Part shown: positions 47,021-51,845 of the stretch, one piece after another
Position numbering within the stretch: the first letter of the stretch is position 1
Layout of the letters: each line of letters opens with the position of its first letter
From: Flavobacteriales bacterium
GTDB lineage: Bacteria > Bacteroidota > Bacteroidia > Flavobacteriales > Flavobacteriaceae
Direction: 5' to 3'
Assembly (NCBI GenBank): GCA_026993355.1
Contig: JALWTX010000006.1
Location: 62,001 to 126,000, forward strand
DNA length: 64,000 nt
The notes under the pieces: generated by a model
Database searches by the model: none
What the model was told of the DNA's origin: nothing
The model's input: only the letters and a program-made list of their open reading frames with translations
Made by a program: the position numbers and the translations under genes

Positions 47021-48676
47021 ATGCTGCAAAATTTATACATTAAAAATTATGCGTTAATAGACAAAATAAACCTGGATTTTGGTCCGGGTTTAAGTATTAT
47101 TACCGGCGAAACAGGTGCCGGCAAATCAATACTATTGGGAGGTTTAGAACTTATTCGCGGTAAACGGACACAACAAGGTTTGCTTAAAAACACCGATGAA
47201 AAAAGTATTGTTGAAGCCACTTTTGATATTGAAAAATATGGTTTAAAAGACCTATTCGTCAAGGAAGATTTAGATTATGAACCGGAAACCATTATTAGAC
47301 GTGAATTATTGCCCAGTGGCAAATCTCGTGCCTTTATCAATGATTCGCCTGCCCGCTTGGACAGTTTGACGCAAATAACCGGAAAACTTTTGGATATACA
47401 CTCGCAACATCAAACCCTGGAACTAAATCAGAAAACATTTCAATTTGAACTCCTTGATGCAATCAGTGGCAACCAAAAGTTGTTACAAACTTATCATAAA
47501 AATTATAAAACTTATCAATTCTTAAAAAAAAACTTAAACCATTTAGAAGAAAAATTATCTGTAGCAGAAAAAGAATTAGCCTATAAAAAATTTCAACTGG
47601 ATGAGTTAAATAGTACCAAATTAGACGATATGAATTTGGAGGATCTTGAAAATCAAATTAAAAAAATTGATAATCAAGCGCTGATCAAAGAAGTATTAAA
47701 CGAAAGCCTCCAGAAACTTGATCAAGAAGAAACCGGTATTTTGTCCCATTGGATAGAAATTAAAAATGCTTTTCAAAAAATAAACCATCTCGACCCTGCA
47801 TTTAAAGAACTGTCCGATAGGTTTGAGAGTTTACATTGGGAAATTAAGGATATAATTGATGAAATTCAACCCTTGATTGACCTAGATGATTTTGATCCGG
47901 CTAAACAACAAGAATTGCAAGAACGTTATGCATTGGTGAACAAACTAATGCTAAAACACCAAGTTTTAACGCTTGAAGAACTCATCGATTTACGCAATAA
48001 TTTGGCTGATGAAGTCACAGATTTATCATCCTTGGAAGAACAAATAGCCGAAGTGAAGCGGAAATTGGCATCCATACATCAAAAATTAGTAGATGATGCC
48101 GCTAAACTCCATCAAAACCGGGCTAAAAATATCCCAAAATTAATCAAACAAATTGAAGAAATATTGACCCAACTTTCAATGGGCAATACCCGGCTTAAAA
48201 TTGACTTGCAAGCCGGTGATGAATTCTACCCCAACGGACGGGATCAACTGCAATTTTTAATTTCATCCGACAAAGGACACAGTTTTGGCCCCTTGAAAAA
48301 AATTGCTTCGGGGGGTGAACTTTCCCGACTAATGTTGGCCGTCAAAACGGTATTATCGAAATACAAAAAATTACCGACCATTATTTTTGATGAAATCGAC
48401 ACAGGTATTTCAGGTGAAGTGGCACAAAATATGGGAGAAGTCCTTAAAAAATTGGCACAAAATATGCAAGTCATTGTTATAACGCATTTGCCTCAAATTG
48501 CTGTTAAAGGCGATACCCATTACAAAGTTTTTAAAACTTCGCAAGGCGATGAAATTTCATCCAGGGTTCAAAAACTCAACAAAGAGCAACGCATTTTGGA
48601 AATTGCACAAATGCTTGAGGGTAAATCACCCTCTGATTCGGCTTTAGAGCATGCCAAACACTTACTCGGATACTAA
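47021..48676 (+). CDS. recN: DNA repair protein RecN
   Basis: 551 residues of the SMC-like RecN family. Walker A GETGAGKS is at 29-36. Coiled-coil arms run over about 150-370 (LEEKLSVAEKELAYKKFQLDEL). The C-terminal ATPase half shows IASGGELSRLMLAVK (signature) and TIIFDEIDTGISG (Walker B). RecN acts early in double-strand-break repair by gathering DNA ends. It is 41 bases after the LiaF-like gene. Confidence 0.96.
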   Translation: MLQNLYIKNYALIDKINLDFGPGLSIITGETGAGKSILLGGLELIRGKRTQQGLLKNTDEKSIVEATFDIEKYGLKDLFVKEDLDYEPETIIRRELLPSGKSRAFINDSPARLDSLTQITGKLLDIHSQHQTLELNQKTFQFELLDAISGNQKLLQTYHKNYKTYQFLKKNLNHLEEKLSVAEKELAYKKFQLDELNSTKLDDMNLEDLENQIKKIDNQALIKEVLNESLQKLDQEETGILSHWIEIKNAFQKINHLDPAFKELSDRFESLHWEIKDIIDEIQPLIDLDDFDPAKQQELQERYALVNKLMLKHQVLTLEELIDLRNNLADEVTDLSSLEEQIAEVKRKLASIHQKLVDDAAKLHQNRAKNIPKLIKQIEEILTQLSMGNTRLKIDLQAGDEFYPNGRDQLQFLISSDKGHSFGPLKKIASGGELSRLMLAVKTVLSKYKKLPTIIFDEIDTGISGEVAQNMGEVLKKLAQNMQVIVITHLPQIAVKGDTHYKVFKTSQGDEISSRVQKLNKEQRILEIAQMLEGKSPSDSALEHAKHLLGY

Positions 48677-48689
48677 TCTCCAAGCTTTT

Positions 48690-48722
48690 TTATAAAAAAA
48701 ACAGCCGCTTGATTGCGGCTGG
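48690..48722 (-). terminator. Terminator of the btuB-btuG-like transcript
   Basis: AGCCGC and GCGGCT (48703-48708 and 48715-48720) form the stem. On the minus strand it is followed by GTTTTTTTTATA, a good U-tract. On the plus strand the tail is weaker. Confidence 0.75.
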
Positions 48723-48744
48723 TGTTTATTATAGATTTAATATC

Positions 48745-49806
48745 TTAGTTAAAATGAAAGCCTAAGTCGCCCGGAATCAATCCAACACTTTGTGTACCTA
48801 TGACTTGCCCATTACTCAAGTCGAAACCTGTCAAAGTACCTTCTTGTTGGTAATCTAAAGCATCAGTGATATATAACTTACCCTTATATGTTTCCATGTT
48901 ATAAGCATTGCCACTGTAAGTTAAGAATTCGCCTGTAGGCAATGTTGTAGCTGTCACAGGCATCTTATACACTTTTTGGTTCAGATAATAATATAGATTA
49001 TCACCATCTAAATTTAAAAATTTAGGATGTTCCGTTACGGCAAAATCATATGTAGCTACCACATTAAAGTTATTATTTATGTCTATTTTATAAAGCTGGC
49101 CGGCAGTTTCATTACCAGTCCAAGAAGGCTCACCACCACAAAGTACCCATAAAAAGTTGCCTTTAATTACCATAGAATTGGGACGGTCACCAACTGTAAT
49201 TACATTGGTTATCTGTTTCAAAATTAAATCATAAACACTGACTTTATGGTTAGTGCCCCATGCTCCTTGATGCGCAACAAATAAATAATCGGTATTTTTT
49301 ACCATTTTTTCCGGCCCTAATTCTACCGGAATTTGACCGGTAACTTCGTTACTATTGGTATTGACAATAGCCAAATAATCATCTGTTGTTACACTGGGGT
49401 CCCCCCAGCAACTCACTAAAGCCGTAGAGGAGCTGATAGTTTCGAAATAACGCGGATTGGTTAAACCACTGGCAATAGTAACCACTTTTTCCATCGTATT
49501 TGCTTTGGTTACTTCAATTTTGTTAGAACCTGTTACCACGATATAAGCATTATCGCCTGCAAAACCAATAGATTGTGCTTGATCACCCAAATCTACATGA
49601 TTGACTGATTTGTAAATGTCATTTTCAACTTGCGACAACTTTTCATCGGTGAAGCTTAAGCTCGCATTGCCGTGCATAAATTGTCCTTCGTTGACCACAA
49701 AAATTCCTTTGTCAAAAGCACCGGTATTTTCATCGATTTTAGTTTTCTCACAAGCTGTTAAGCCTACAAATAAGCTGAATAATAAAAGTAAATTAATTTT
49801 CTTCAT
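48745..49806 (-). CDS. BtuG-like surface lipoprotein, beta-propeller
   Basis: 353 residues with a lipobox (LFVGLTAC, Cys19) and an acidic/lysine stretch after it (EKTKIDE), a composition seen at surface-exposed Bacteroidota lipoproteins. The mature part is a YncE-like beta-propeller: GDQAQSIGFAGDNAYIVV, then NTDYLFVAHQ, then VTVGDRPNSMVIKGNFLWVLCGG. In gut Bacteroides the surface lipoprotein BtuG has this fold, binds vitamin B12 and hands it to BtuB. The gene is 10 bases downstream of a TonB receptor gene that sits behind a cobalamin riboswitch. That makes the assignment strong, though homology to BtuG was not tested by alignment. Confidence 0.82.
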   Translation of the reverse strand: MKKINLLLLFSLFVGLTACEKTKIDENTGAFDKGIFVVNEGQFMHGNASLSFTDEKLSQVENDIYKSVNHVDLGDQAQSIGFAGDNAYIVVTGSNKIEVTKANTMEKVVTIASGLTNPRYFETISSSTALVSCWGDPSVTTDDYLAIVNTNSNEVTGQIPVELGPEKMVKNTDYLFVAHQGAWGTNHKVSVYDLILKQITNVITVGDRPNSMVIKGNFLWVLCGGEPSWTGNETAGQLYKIDINNNFNVVATYDFAVTEHPKFLNLDGDNLYYYLNQKVYKMPVTATTLPTGEFLTYSGNAYNMETYKGKLYITDALDYQQEGTLTGFDLSNGQVIGTQSVGLIPGDLGFHFN

Positions 49807-49816
49807 AGTATATGTT

Positions 49817-51634
49817 TTATAGTTTAAAATTTAAAATAAATTCATAAGAACGTCCGGGTAAAGGCCGGCTGGGAATAGTTTCGTAATAGGCATTTAACAC
49901 ATTTTTGATCCTGAAGCTAACTTGCCAATGCCGGTTTGTCTTAAAGGTCAAAGATAAGTTATGTAATTGATATGCCGGCAAAAATTTGGTATTACTTGTC
50001 GTAGTAAAAATACGTCCTTGATAATGAAAATGATAGGTAAAAAACCATTTTTTATGGTGCATAGAAAGGAGATTATTTCCTACATATTTGGGCATAAAAG
50101 GTAAAATCTTGCCGGTATTGTCATTACTTACTTTATGGTAGTTAAATTGTATTGTTTCAGCAAGATGCCATGTATGCGAAACGCTTTTCTTATAGGAGAA
50201 ACTCACCTCAACACCTTTTGATGTTACGGAAGCAAAATTTACGGGTTGCCAAAAATCATTTGAAATAGGAATCCACTTAATTAAATTGCCGGACTTAATA
50301 TTAAAGATAGTAAAATGAAAGCTTAAAGAAGCAAAAACAGCATCATATCCCATTTCATAAGCATAACTTTCTTCGGGCTTTAAATCAGGATTGCCACCGG
50401 GCTGCCAATACAAATCGTTAAAAGTGGGCAATCGGAAGTTACGGGAAAAATTGCCTCTAAATTGATGTTTATCCGTTATTTTATATTCAAATTCGGCGGC
50501 GCCGGTAAGAGGAATAACTTGAGCAGAACTAAAATCTTTTCTCAATTTTAACCGGGTAAGTAAATGTGTGTTTGTTTTAGTCCAGATAGCATATAAAGCA
50601 TAATTATTACGGATATGTCTTTGAATATGATCGCCTAAGCCAATTTGATGCTGCCACTCATTTCCTAACAAAAATTTATTATTTGCCGGCAAACGCCAAA
50701 TACTTGTATTTTTAATGATCCATTGTTGACTATGGCTATCGCTATGTGCCGGCAATATTTTATTAAAATAATATCGGTATCGCTCATAAAGCCAAGCAGC
50801 ATTAAAACGGTTTAAAAATTTTGATTTTTTATATTGTCCCCCTGTCAGCAAATACCGGTTATTGGTTTTTAGACGGGCATTTTGCGGCATATAAACTGTT
50901 CTGGAAGTTTCGCGGTCCCAATTGGCTATTTTAGATTTAAAATACCATTGCATATTTTTATGAATTTTGTACCCGGCAATTAAACCATAATCTATACCTT
51001 GATAAGCCCCATTCTCATTTTTAATTTGATAGCCGGGATAAGGATAATCATTTTTTGACTTTTGAAACTGGGATTTTAATTTTACATAAAATTTACCGGA
51101 GCTATTTTCAATTTGCAAAGCATTCACCATTGTTTCAAAACTGGCAATTTTACTTTGGTTTTGCAAATGAAAACCCGGCGAAAAATGTAAATTATCATCA
51201 AAAATAACAACGCCTCCTATGGCACCACTGCCAAAACTGACACTACTGCCCCCTTTTTTTATATAAATGTTGCTAAATCCGGCCGGTGAAAAAGTGTTCA
51301 AATCGGTTTGACCATTTAAAATAGAATTTACCGGTATACCATTCCAAACAATTTGTGTATGTGCTGTACCGGTACCTCTTAAACTGATCCCCGCTATCAT
51401 ACCGCGACCATATTCTTTATAAAAAACAGCTGTTTTTTGCAAAAGTAAATCCGGCAAGGTTGAAGTTCCTGCCATACTATCTCGCAAACGCACTAAATAA
51501 TAAGCTTTATGCCATTCTTTATCTGTCAGCGCATGAATATGAATCGAATCCAGGGCATATTTGGTCTGTTTTAGTTGCCCCTGAACAGAATTGAAAAAAA
51601 TTAAAAGACAAAAGATAAAAATTACTTTATACAT
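49817..51634 (-). CDS. btuB: TonB-dependent cobalamin receptor, BtuB-like
   Basis: 605 residues with a signal peptide (MYKVIFIFCLLIFFNSVQG). The plug domain (VFYKEYGRGMIAGISLRGTG, TQIVWNGIPVNS, VSFGSGAIGGVVIF) and the 22-strand barrel region follow. It lacks a carboxypeptidase-like N-terminal domain. The cobalamin riboswitch in its leader identifies vitamin B12 or a related corrinoid as ligand far better than the protein does. The putative surface lipoprotein gene follows after 10 bases. No inner-membrane BtuCDF genes are present in the window. Confidence 0.9.
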   Translation of the reverse strand: MYKVIFIFCLLIFFNSVQGQLKQTKYALDSIHIHALTDKEWHKAYYLVRLRDSMAGTSTLPDLLLQKTAVFYKEYGRGMIAGISLRGTGTAHTQIVWNGIPVNSILNGQTDLNTFSPAGFSNIYIKKGGSSVSFGSGAIGGVVIFDDNLHFSPGFHLQNQSKIASFETMVNALQIENSSGKFYVKLKSQFQKSKNDYPYPGYQIKNENGAYQGIDYGLIAGYKIHKNMQWYFKSKIANWDRETSRTVYMPQNARLKTNNRYLLTGGQYKKSKFLNRFNAAWLYERYRYYFNKILPAHSDSHSQQWIIKNTSIWRLPANNKFLLGNEWQHQIGLGDHIQRHIRNNYALYAIWTKTNTHLLTRLKLRKDFSSAQVIPLTGAAEFEYKITDKHQFRGNFSRNFRLPTFNDLYWQPGGNPDLKPEESYAYEMGYDAVFASLSFHFTIFNIKSGNLIKWIPISNDFWQPVNFASVTSKGVEVSFSYKKSVSHTWHLAETIQFNYHKVSNDNTGKILPFMPKYVGNNLLSMHHKKWFFTYHFHYQGRIFTTTSNTKFLPAYQLHNLSLTFKTNRHWQVSFRIKNVLNAYYETIPSRPLPGRSYEFILNFKL

Positions 51635-51679
51635 AATATAACAGCCCTTTCCGCCGAAGGATTTTTTAGTTTAAGATTT

Positions 51680-51830
51680 AGCAGGTCTCCTGGCTCGCGT
51701 CTTATACCGGGCCTTCCCATCTATAGACAGTGGCGTAAGATTCGGCATAAGCTATATAGCTCACAGTTGCGGGGACAGCTTAGGATTTTCACCTAATTCC
51801 CTTTTAATTTCATCCAAAGATGAAAACTAA
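51680..51830 (-). promoter_or_regulatory. Cobalamin (AdoCbl) riboswitch
   Basis: Read on the minus strand, the leader contains GGGAATTAGGTGAAAATCC, then CTGTCCCCGCAACTGT, then GCCACTG, GGGAAGGC and the B12 box GCCAGGAGACCTGC. These lie in the correct order over about 145 bases. The aptamer ends about 46 bases before the btuB ATG at 51634, so ligand binding can block translation start or cause termination in the leader. Confidence 0.95.
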
Positions 51831-51837
51831 ATCGGGG

Positions 51838-51845
51838 CAAAGTTA
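51838..51845 (-). promoter_or_regulatory. Promoter -7 element (TAACTTTG) for the riboswitch transcript
   Basis: TAACTTTG on the minus strand matches TAnnTTTG and lies just upstream of the riboswitch. No TTG occurs at 19-21 bases from it, so the -33 element is weak. Confidence 0.5.

Follow-up and report, generated by a model that had tools for sequence, protein, structure and literature searches.

We consider it highly probable that the minus strand of the window (the whole 64,000-nucleotide stretch of Flavobacteriales DNA analyzed here) carries a btuB-btuG corrinoid-uptake operon under a cobalamin riboswitch, in which ligand capture is of the lid type and expression is shut down through the riboswitch. 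An earlier note on this DNA had described a minus-strand cobalamin riboswitch followed by a TonB receptor and, 10 bases further on, a lipoprotein propeller, and all three elements were recovered. The Rfam model RF00174 was matched over its full length (model positions 1-189 of 189) at 122.3 bits, compared to a gathering score of 31.5, both open reading frames were confirmed, and exactly 10 bases separate the btuB stop codon from the btuG ATG. The span given in that note, 48690-51845, fits the riboswitch and the two coding regions combined. The features are, in window coordinates:

51846-51663, minus strand: cobalamin riboswitch aptamer (P3-P6 core and B12 box class) in the 5' leader of btuB, from Rfam RF00174
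51775-51770, minus strand: loop L5 of the aptamer (UCCCCG), pairing with L13 in the regulatory kissing loop and co-varying with it across 53 loci
51661-51645, minus strand: P13/L13 expression-platform hairpin with conserved arms (stem 51661-51657 / 51649-51645, loop CGG(C)GGA 51656-51650)
51634-49817, minus strand: btuB, predicted TonB-dependent corrinoid receptor (plug and barrel), 605 aa, from Pfam, phmmer and AlphaFold2/Foldseek
50287-50240, minus strand: EL8 region of BtuB, residues 450-465 (NLIKWIPISNDFWQPV), from the HMMER alignment
49806-48745, minus strand: btuG, lipoprotein with a seven-bladed beta-propeller, 353 aa, from Pfam, phmmer and AlphaFold2/Foldseek
49806-49750, minus strand: signal peptide and lipobox of BtuG up to Cys19, from sequence, with Cys19 invariant in 64 homologues
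49692-49660, minus strand: blade-1 ligand-gripping loop of BtuG, N39-S49 (NEGQFMHGNAS), the equivalent of BtuG2 Asn54-Thr64
48721-48702, minus strand: putative intrinsic terminator 3' of btuG, common to the convergent RecN-like gene, from its stem and T tail

Operon layout and the leader riboswitch

RF00174 was the sole Rfam match above threshold in the window, and the copy in the btuB leader is the one cobalamin riboswitch of the whole 2.21-Mb genome. At the other end of the operon, the terminator candidate has a 7-bp stem with six G-C pairs and eight T, and its position and tail fit an operon end, the count of such terminator-like sites in the region being that expected by chance. The neighboring gene (47021-48676, plus strand), which we take to be RecN-like, converges on btuG; the terminator and this convergent gene together argue for an operon of two genes.

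The full aptamer, the B12 box and the kissing loop to a downstream hairpin correspond to the description of RF00174 riboswitches, a class known to form a kissing loop between L5 and L13 (PMC9600662). Here, however, L13 reads CGG-N-GGA with one bulged base and lies directly before the start codon, unlike the riboswitch described there, the P13/L13 hairpin being placed ~10 nt 5' of the btuB ATG. L5 (UCCCCG) and L13 (CGG(C)GGA) can form six pairs around the bulge. Across the 53 loci, L5-L13 pairs totaled 312 versus 290.7 with shuffled partners (0/10000), and the ten distinct L5/L13 combinations alone gave 59 pairs versus 55.2 (150/10000), where the shuffling ignores relatedness and the fractions are not strict probabilities. 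Loci with UUCCCG as L5 carry L13 loops of the CGGGA or CGGGUA type, and five of the six pairs are kept in six loci, namely those with UACCCG. The arms of the P13 stem also match one another (6.5 pairs versus 4.9 in shuffles, 0/5000; 53 loci), and the single-sequence fold of the P13 platform was no better than that of shuffles (z 0.6). Together, the covariation data lend support to putative riboswitch control near the btuB start codon, in a phylum in which Shine-Dalgarno starts are rarely used.

A second pairing of L13, between UUCGGC and GCCGAA in the variable region, is perfect over six pairs in the window; we dropped it because GCCGAA is not conserved in relatives while L5-L13 co-varies.

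The direction of regulation is taken from Bacteroides thetaiotaomicron, in which B12 represses ~70-fold (PMC6143338), and by analogy with that case we infer that B12 turns the operon off. In a B12-replete cell, the riboswitch would bind the cofactor and stabilize the L5-L13 kissing loop and the P13 hairpin before the btuB start, and the stabilized structure would shut btuB-btuG expression down.

The BtuG lipoprotein and the BtuB receptor

The lipoprotein is BtuG by sequence and by predicted fold. It matches Pfam DUF5074 (4.8e-14), and its top PDB sequence matches in phmmer run from 6e-41 to 7e-38 and comprise BtuG3, BtuG2 and orthologues of both (B. thetaiotaomicron BtuG3 6e-41, BtuG2 9e-39), with BtuG1 at 6e-8; the first of all is the BtuG3 chain of the solved BtuB3G3 complex. 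Structure modeling bore out the BtuG-like propeller that the earlier note had proposed: the AlphaFold2 model (alignment of 64 homologues; pLDDT 94.4, pTM 0.89) has BtuG chains as all of its top 16 PDB fold matches in Foldseek (TM 0.76-0.82 by query length), of which the best is BtuG3 solved alone (8okv_D; E 7e-28, TM 0.80 by query and 0.87 by target) and the third 8p97_B. Propellers other than BtuG come far lower in the list, the first being BtuK1 at 3e-14.

From this homology and the model, B12 binding is predicted, and we compared the ligand site with that of BtuG2 by mapping residues via the 8bmx_D chain, using UniProt numbering as in PMC10404256 (Asn54 and Thr64 agree). The two proteins share 105 of 308 aligned residues (34%). 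Trp194 and Tyr335 of BtuG2 are both kept, as Trp183 and Tyr319, and Trp272 is replaced by His260; given the Ala of BtuG3, this position varies among known BtuG members. Tyr239 and Tyr316 lie opposite gaps in the alignment. Within the loop equivalent to Asn54-Thr64, which grips the ligand in simulations of BtuG2 (PMC10404256), N39, E40 and G41 are invariant and N47 is kept in >90% of the 64 BtuG homologues. Mature BtuG has a net charge of -17, similar to the -18 of BtuG2 (PMC10404256), so that both the ligand loop and the strong negative charge of B. thetaiotaomicron BtuG are found here.

The N-terminus of BtuG (MKKINLLLLFSLFVGLTAC) places the lipobox cysteine at position 19. The suggestion in the earlier note that the residues after it direct surface export is only weakly borne out: CEKTKIDE is acidic and lysine-rich, but it is not a textbook signal, and the homologue group prefers K at position +3 and D from +4 through +6. 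Cys19 and this weak export signal suggest that BtuG would be displayed on the cell surface.

The receptor, similarly, is BtuB by sequence and predicted fold, and is predicted to transport corrinoids. It comprises Plug and TonB_dep_Rec barrel domains (Pfam) and matches BtuB3 at 1e-47, BtuB2 at 1.5e-41 and BtuB1 at 3e-12 in phmmer. The BtuB3 chain of the solved BtuB3G3 complex is the best match by sequence and also, in Foldseek, that of the AlphaFold2 model (pLDDT 90; E 3e-38, TM 0.87), with nothing but Bacteroides or E. coli BtuB in ranks 1-16. E. coli BtuB shares the receptor fold (TM about 0.83), whereas E. coli has neither BtuG nor a lid (PMC6143338). The top NCBIfam model is that of the B12 receptor, TIGR01779 (1e-34), with 120 bits, far under its curated cut-off of 600. 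In EL8, Trp462 aligns in HMMER with Tyr538 of BtuB3, a residue proposed to aid B12 release from BtuG (PMC10404256), and BtuB1 likewise has Trp there. The surrounding motif, W454-x-P456 ... W462-x-P464-x-N466, is conserved, with W454 and N466 each present in 53/54 homologues and W462 in 48/54.

The locus thus has the riboswitch, the EL8 aromatic residue and the adjacent BtuG lipoprotein in common with BtuB3G3 and BtuB2G2 of B. thetaiotaomicron (PMC10404256; PDB 8p97, 8p98, 8bmx). It differs from them in that the operon is btuB-btuG alone, with neither btuFCD nor btuH beside it, in the 605 aa of BtuB compared to about 690-710 for BtuB2/BtuB3, and in carrying Trp, as in BtuB1, at the position of Tyr538 of BtuB3. 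By this likeness, BtuG, lipid-anchored on the cell surface, would cap the BtuB barrel like the lid of a pedal bin, and its negatively charged central cavity would capture B12 or related corrinoids. On lid closure, the BtuB loop EL8 with Trp462 would push the corrinoid from BtuG into BtuB, after which TonB energy would move it through the BtuB plug.

Corrinoid need and supply in the genome

We inventoried the genome, which has an estimated completeness of 99%, by single-family searches, finding a single copy each of the riboswitch, BtuG and a FecCD permease, along with BtuF-like binding proteins. This single btuB-btuG locus compares with three in B. thetaiotaomicron, and single-locus genomes such as this one would be simpler test cases. 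The FecCD permease is closest to BtuC, yet its matches are under the curated cut-off; it would be the unlinked ABC permease that imports the corrinoid to the inside of the cell. The permease gene (G000 C12:192160-193101; L033, L148) is isolated, with a TPR protein gene on one side, a WYL-like gene on the other and no adjoining ABC ATPase or binding protein, in contrast to the btuC-like copies that many Flavobacteriaceae have upstream of btuB.

Two adenosylcobalamin-dependent enzymes are encoded, methylmalonyl-CoA mutase (MutB) and an IcmF-type fused mutase, and these would be the users of the imported cofactor; they alone account for the PF02310 B12-binding domains in the genome, and a PduO-type adenosyltransferase was found as well. 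MetH and MetE were both looked for without success in this genome of estimated 99% completeness, and so was the corrin amidase PF07685, a marker of de novo B12 synthesis. Together, the mutases and the adenosyltransferase found, and the MetH, MetE and PF07685 not found, suggest that the B12 demand is likely for adenosylcobalamin to serve the mutases, supplied by import. Methionine auxotrophy of the organism is possible, as is a methionine route of another kind.

BtuG2 makes its contacts with the corrin ring, leaving the lower ligand untouched (PMC10404256), and cobalamin riboswitches respond to corrinoids broadly (PMC9600662), so that sequence cannot separate cobalamin from other corrinoids such as cobinamide or pseudo-B12. 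An importer tuned to one of these and not to cobalamin is nevertheless unlikely, as there is no pointer to any particular lower ligand and the PF07685 result gives no indication that early precursors are completed.

Linkage across Bacteroidota

A btuG homologue directly adjoins a btuB-like gene at 23/25 loci of a phylum sample drawn by DUF5074 alone (the best-scoring 30 loci, of which 5 have no BtuG-like match), at 27/29 loci of relatives, and at 75/80 loci of named GTDB species, the last set being somewhat biased by its search profile of mostly btuB-linked sequences. A cobalamin riboswitch lies near 26 of the 27 loci tested with Rfam, and BtuG is encoded in 11/12 other genomes of the window's genus. 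Christiangramia is one example of a cultivated relative that carries the operon as well. The homologues are accordingly not found mostly away from B12 loci, an outcome that the earlier note had said would speak against its reading, and a riboswitch, btuB and the propeller gene occur together at nearly all Bacteroidota loci tested. We scored adjacency with the BtuG sequence itself because DUF5074 is imprecise and also marks longer proteins of 640-760 aa. These long proteins (L002-L006) outscore BtuG by far for DUF5074, of which BtuG is a distant branch.

It is very improbable that the pair imports some other metal chelate or cofactor, such as heme or a siderophore, with the riboswitch merely coupling import to B12 status. 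Heme and siderophore TonB receptors do score in the same search as BtuB, and XusA, a lipoprotein-capped Bacteroides siderophore receptor, is among the BtuB fold matches at rank 24; the former score lower, however, and both proteins are matched best by the B12 system in sequence as well as in structure, the EL8 motif is retained, and riboswitch, btuB and btuG stay together in homologues. There is equally little to recommend a periplasmic or loosely related propeller that forms no BtuB lid, a reading with which the weak export signal would agree but not the near-strict btuB pairing, the BtuG-specific fold match or the invariant Cys19 and ligand loop.

The btuB-btuG operon can be set against what has been described before. 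In previous surveys, whose genomes were from the gut, nearly all Bacteroidetes B12 loci have BtuG beside BtuB, and btuG is exclusive to Bacteroidetes (PMC6143338, PMC10404256). The btuG homologues of gut Bacteroidetes have the btuB-btuG order, lipobox and propeller seen here, but the 2018 survey was one of 313 genomes from the human gut (PMC6143338), whereas the present host is uncultured and belongs to a Flavobacteriaceae MAG genus. A Flavobacterium study reported a cobalamin riboswitch ahead of an unnamed TonB receptor (PMC9723704); in the literature searched we found no paper on BtuG in Flavobacteria and no habitat paper for the relatives' MAGs. The expectation of the earlier note that a linked pair would extend the BtuB-BtuG system consequently holds in part: the pair is linked here, outside the gut survey, but it is not new, having been reported as near-universal. 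What the locus adds is breadth beyond the gut, along with a minimal version of the system in single copy.

The lid-assisted B12 importer of gut Bacteroides appears with the same gene order and key motifs in many named non-gut Bacteroidota. On balance, we favor a view of riboswitch-btuB-btuG as a phylum-wide, probably ancestral Bacteroidota unit for B12 capture, as opposed to an adaptation to the gut by which host proteins are stripped of B12. In free-living lineages it would take the minimal form of one single-copy operon of two genes, supplying adenosylcobalamin mutases only, and some Flavobacteriia would have added a second, T9SS-exported BtuG-like propeller. If this is true, the spread of the importer across many non-gut Bacteroidota suggests that BtuG likely evolved for general scavenging of scarce corrinoids, and its capacity to strip human intrinsic factor of B12 would have arisen as a by-product.

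Several Flavobacteriia encode, within the operon, a second BtuG-like propeller whose C-terminal domain is a type A sorting domain of the T9SS (TIGR04183, E 2e-12 to 8e-18). These tailed propellers lie at L046 4986-6962, L049 4601-5911, L050 4917-6221, L056 6068-7375, L057 5001-6947, L062 4866-6209 and L064 4929-6227, and the lipobox cysteine is missing from at least those of L046, L049, L050, L057 and L064. Judged from sequence, such a protein would be a B12-binding propeller with another export route.
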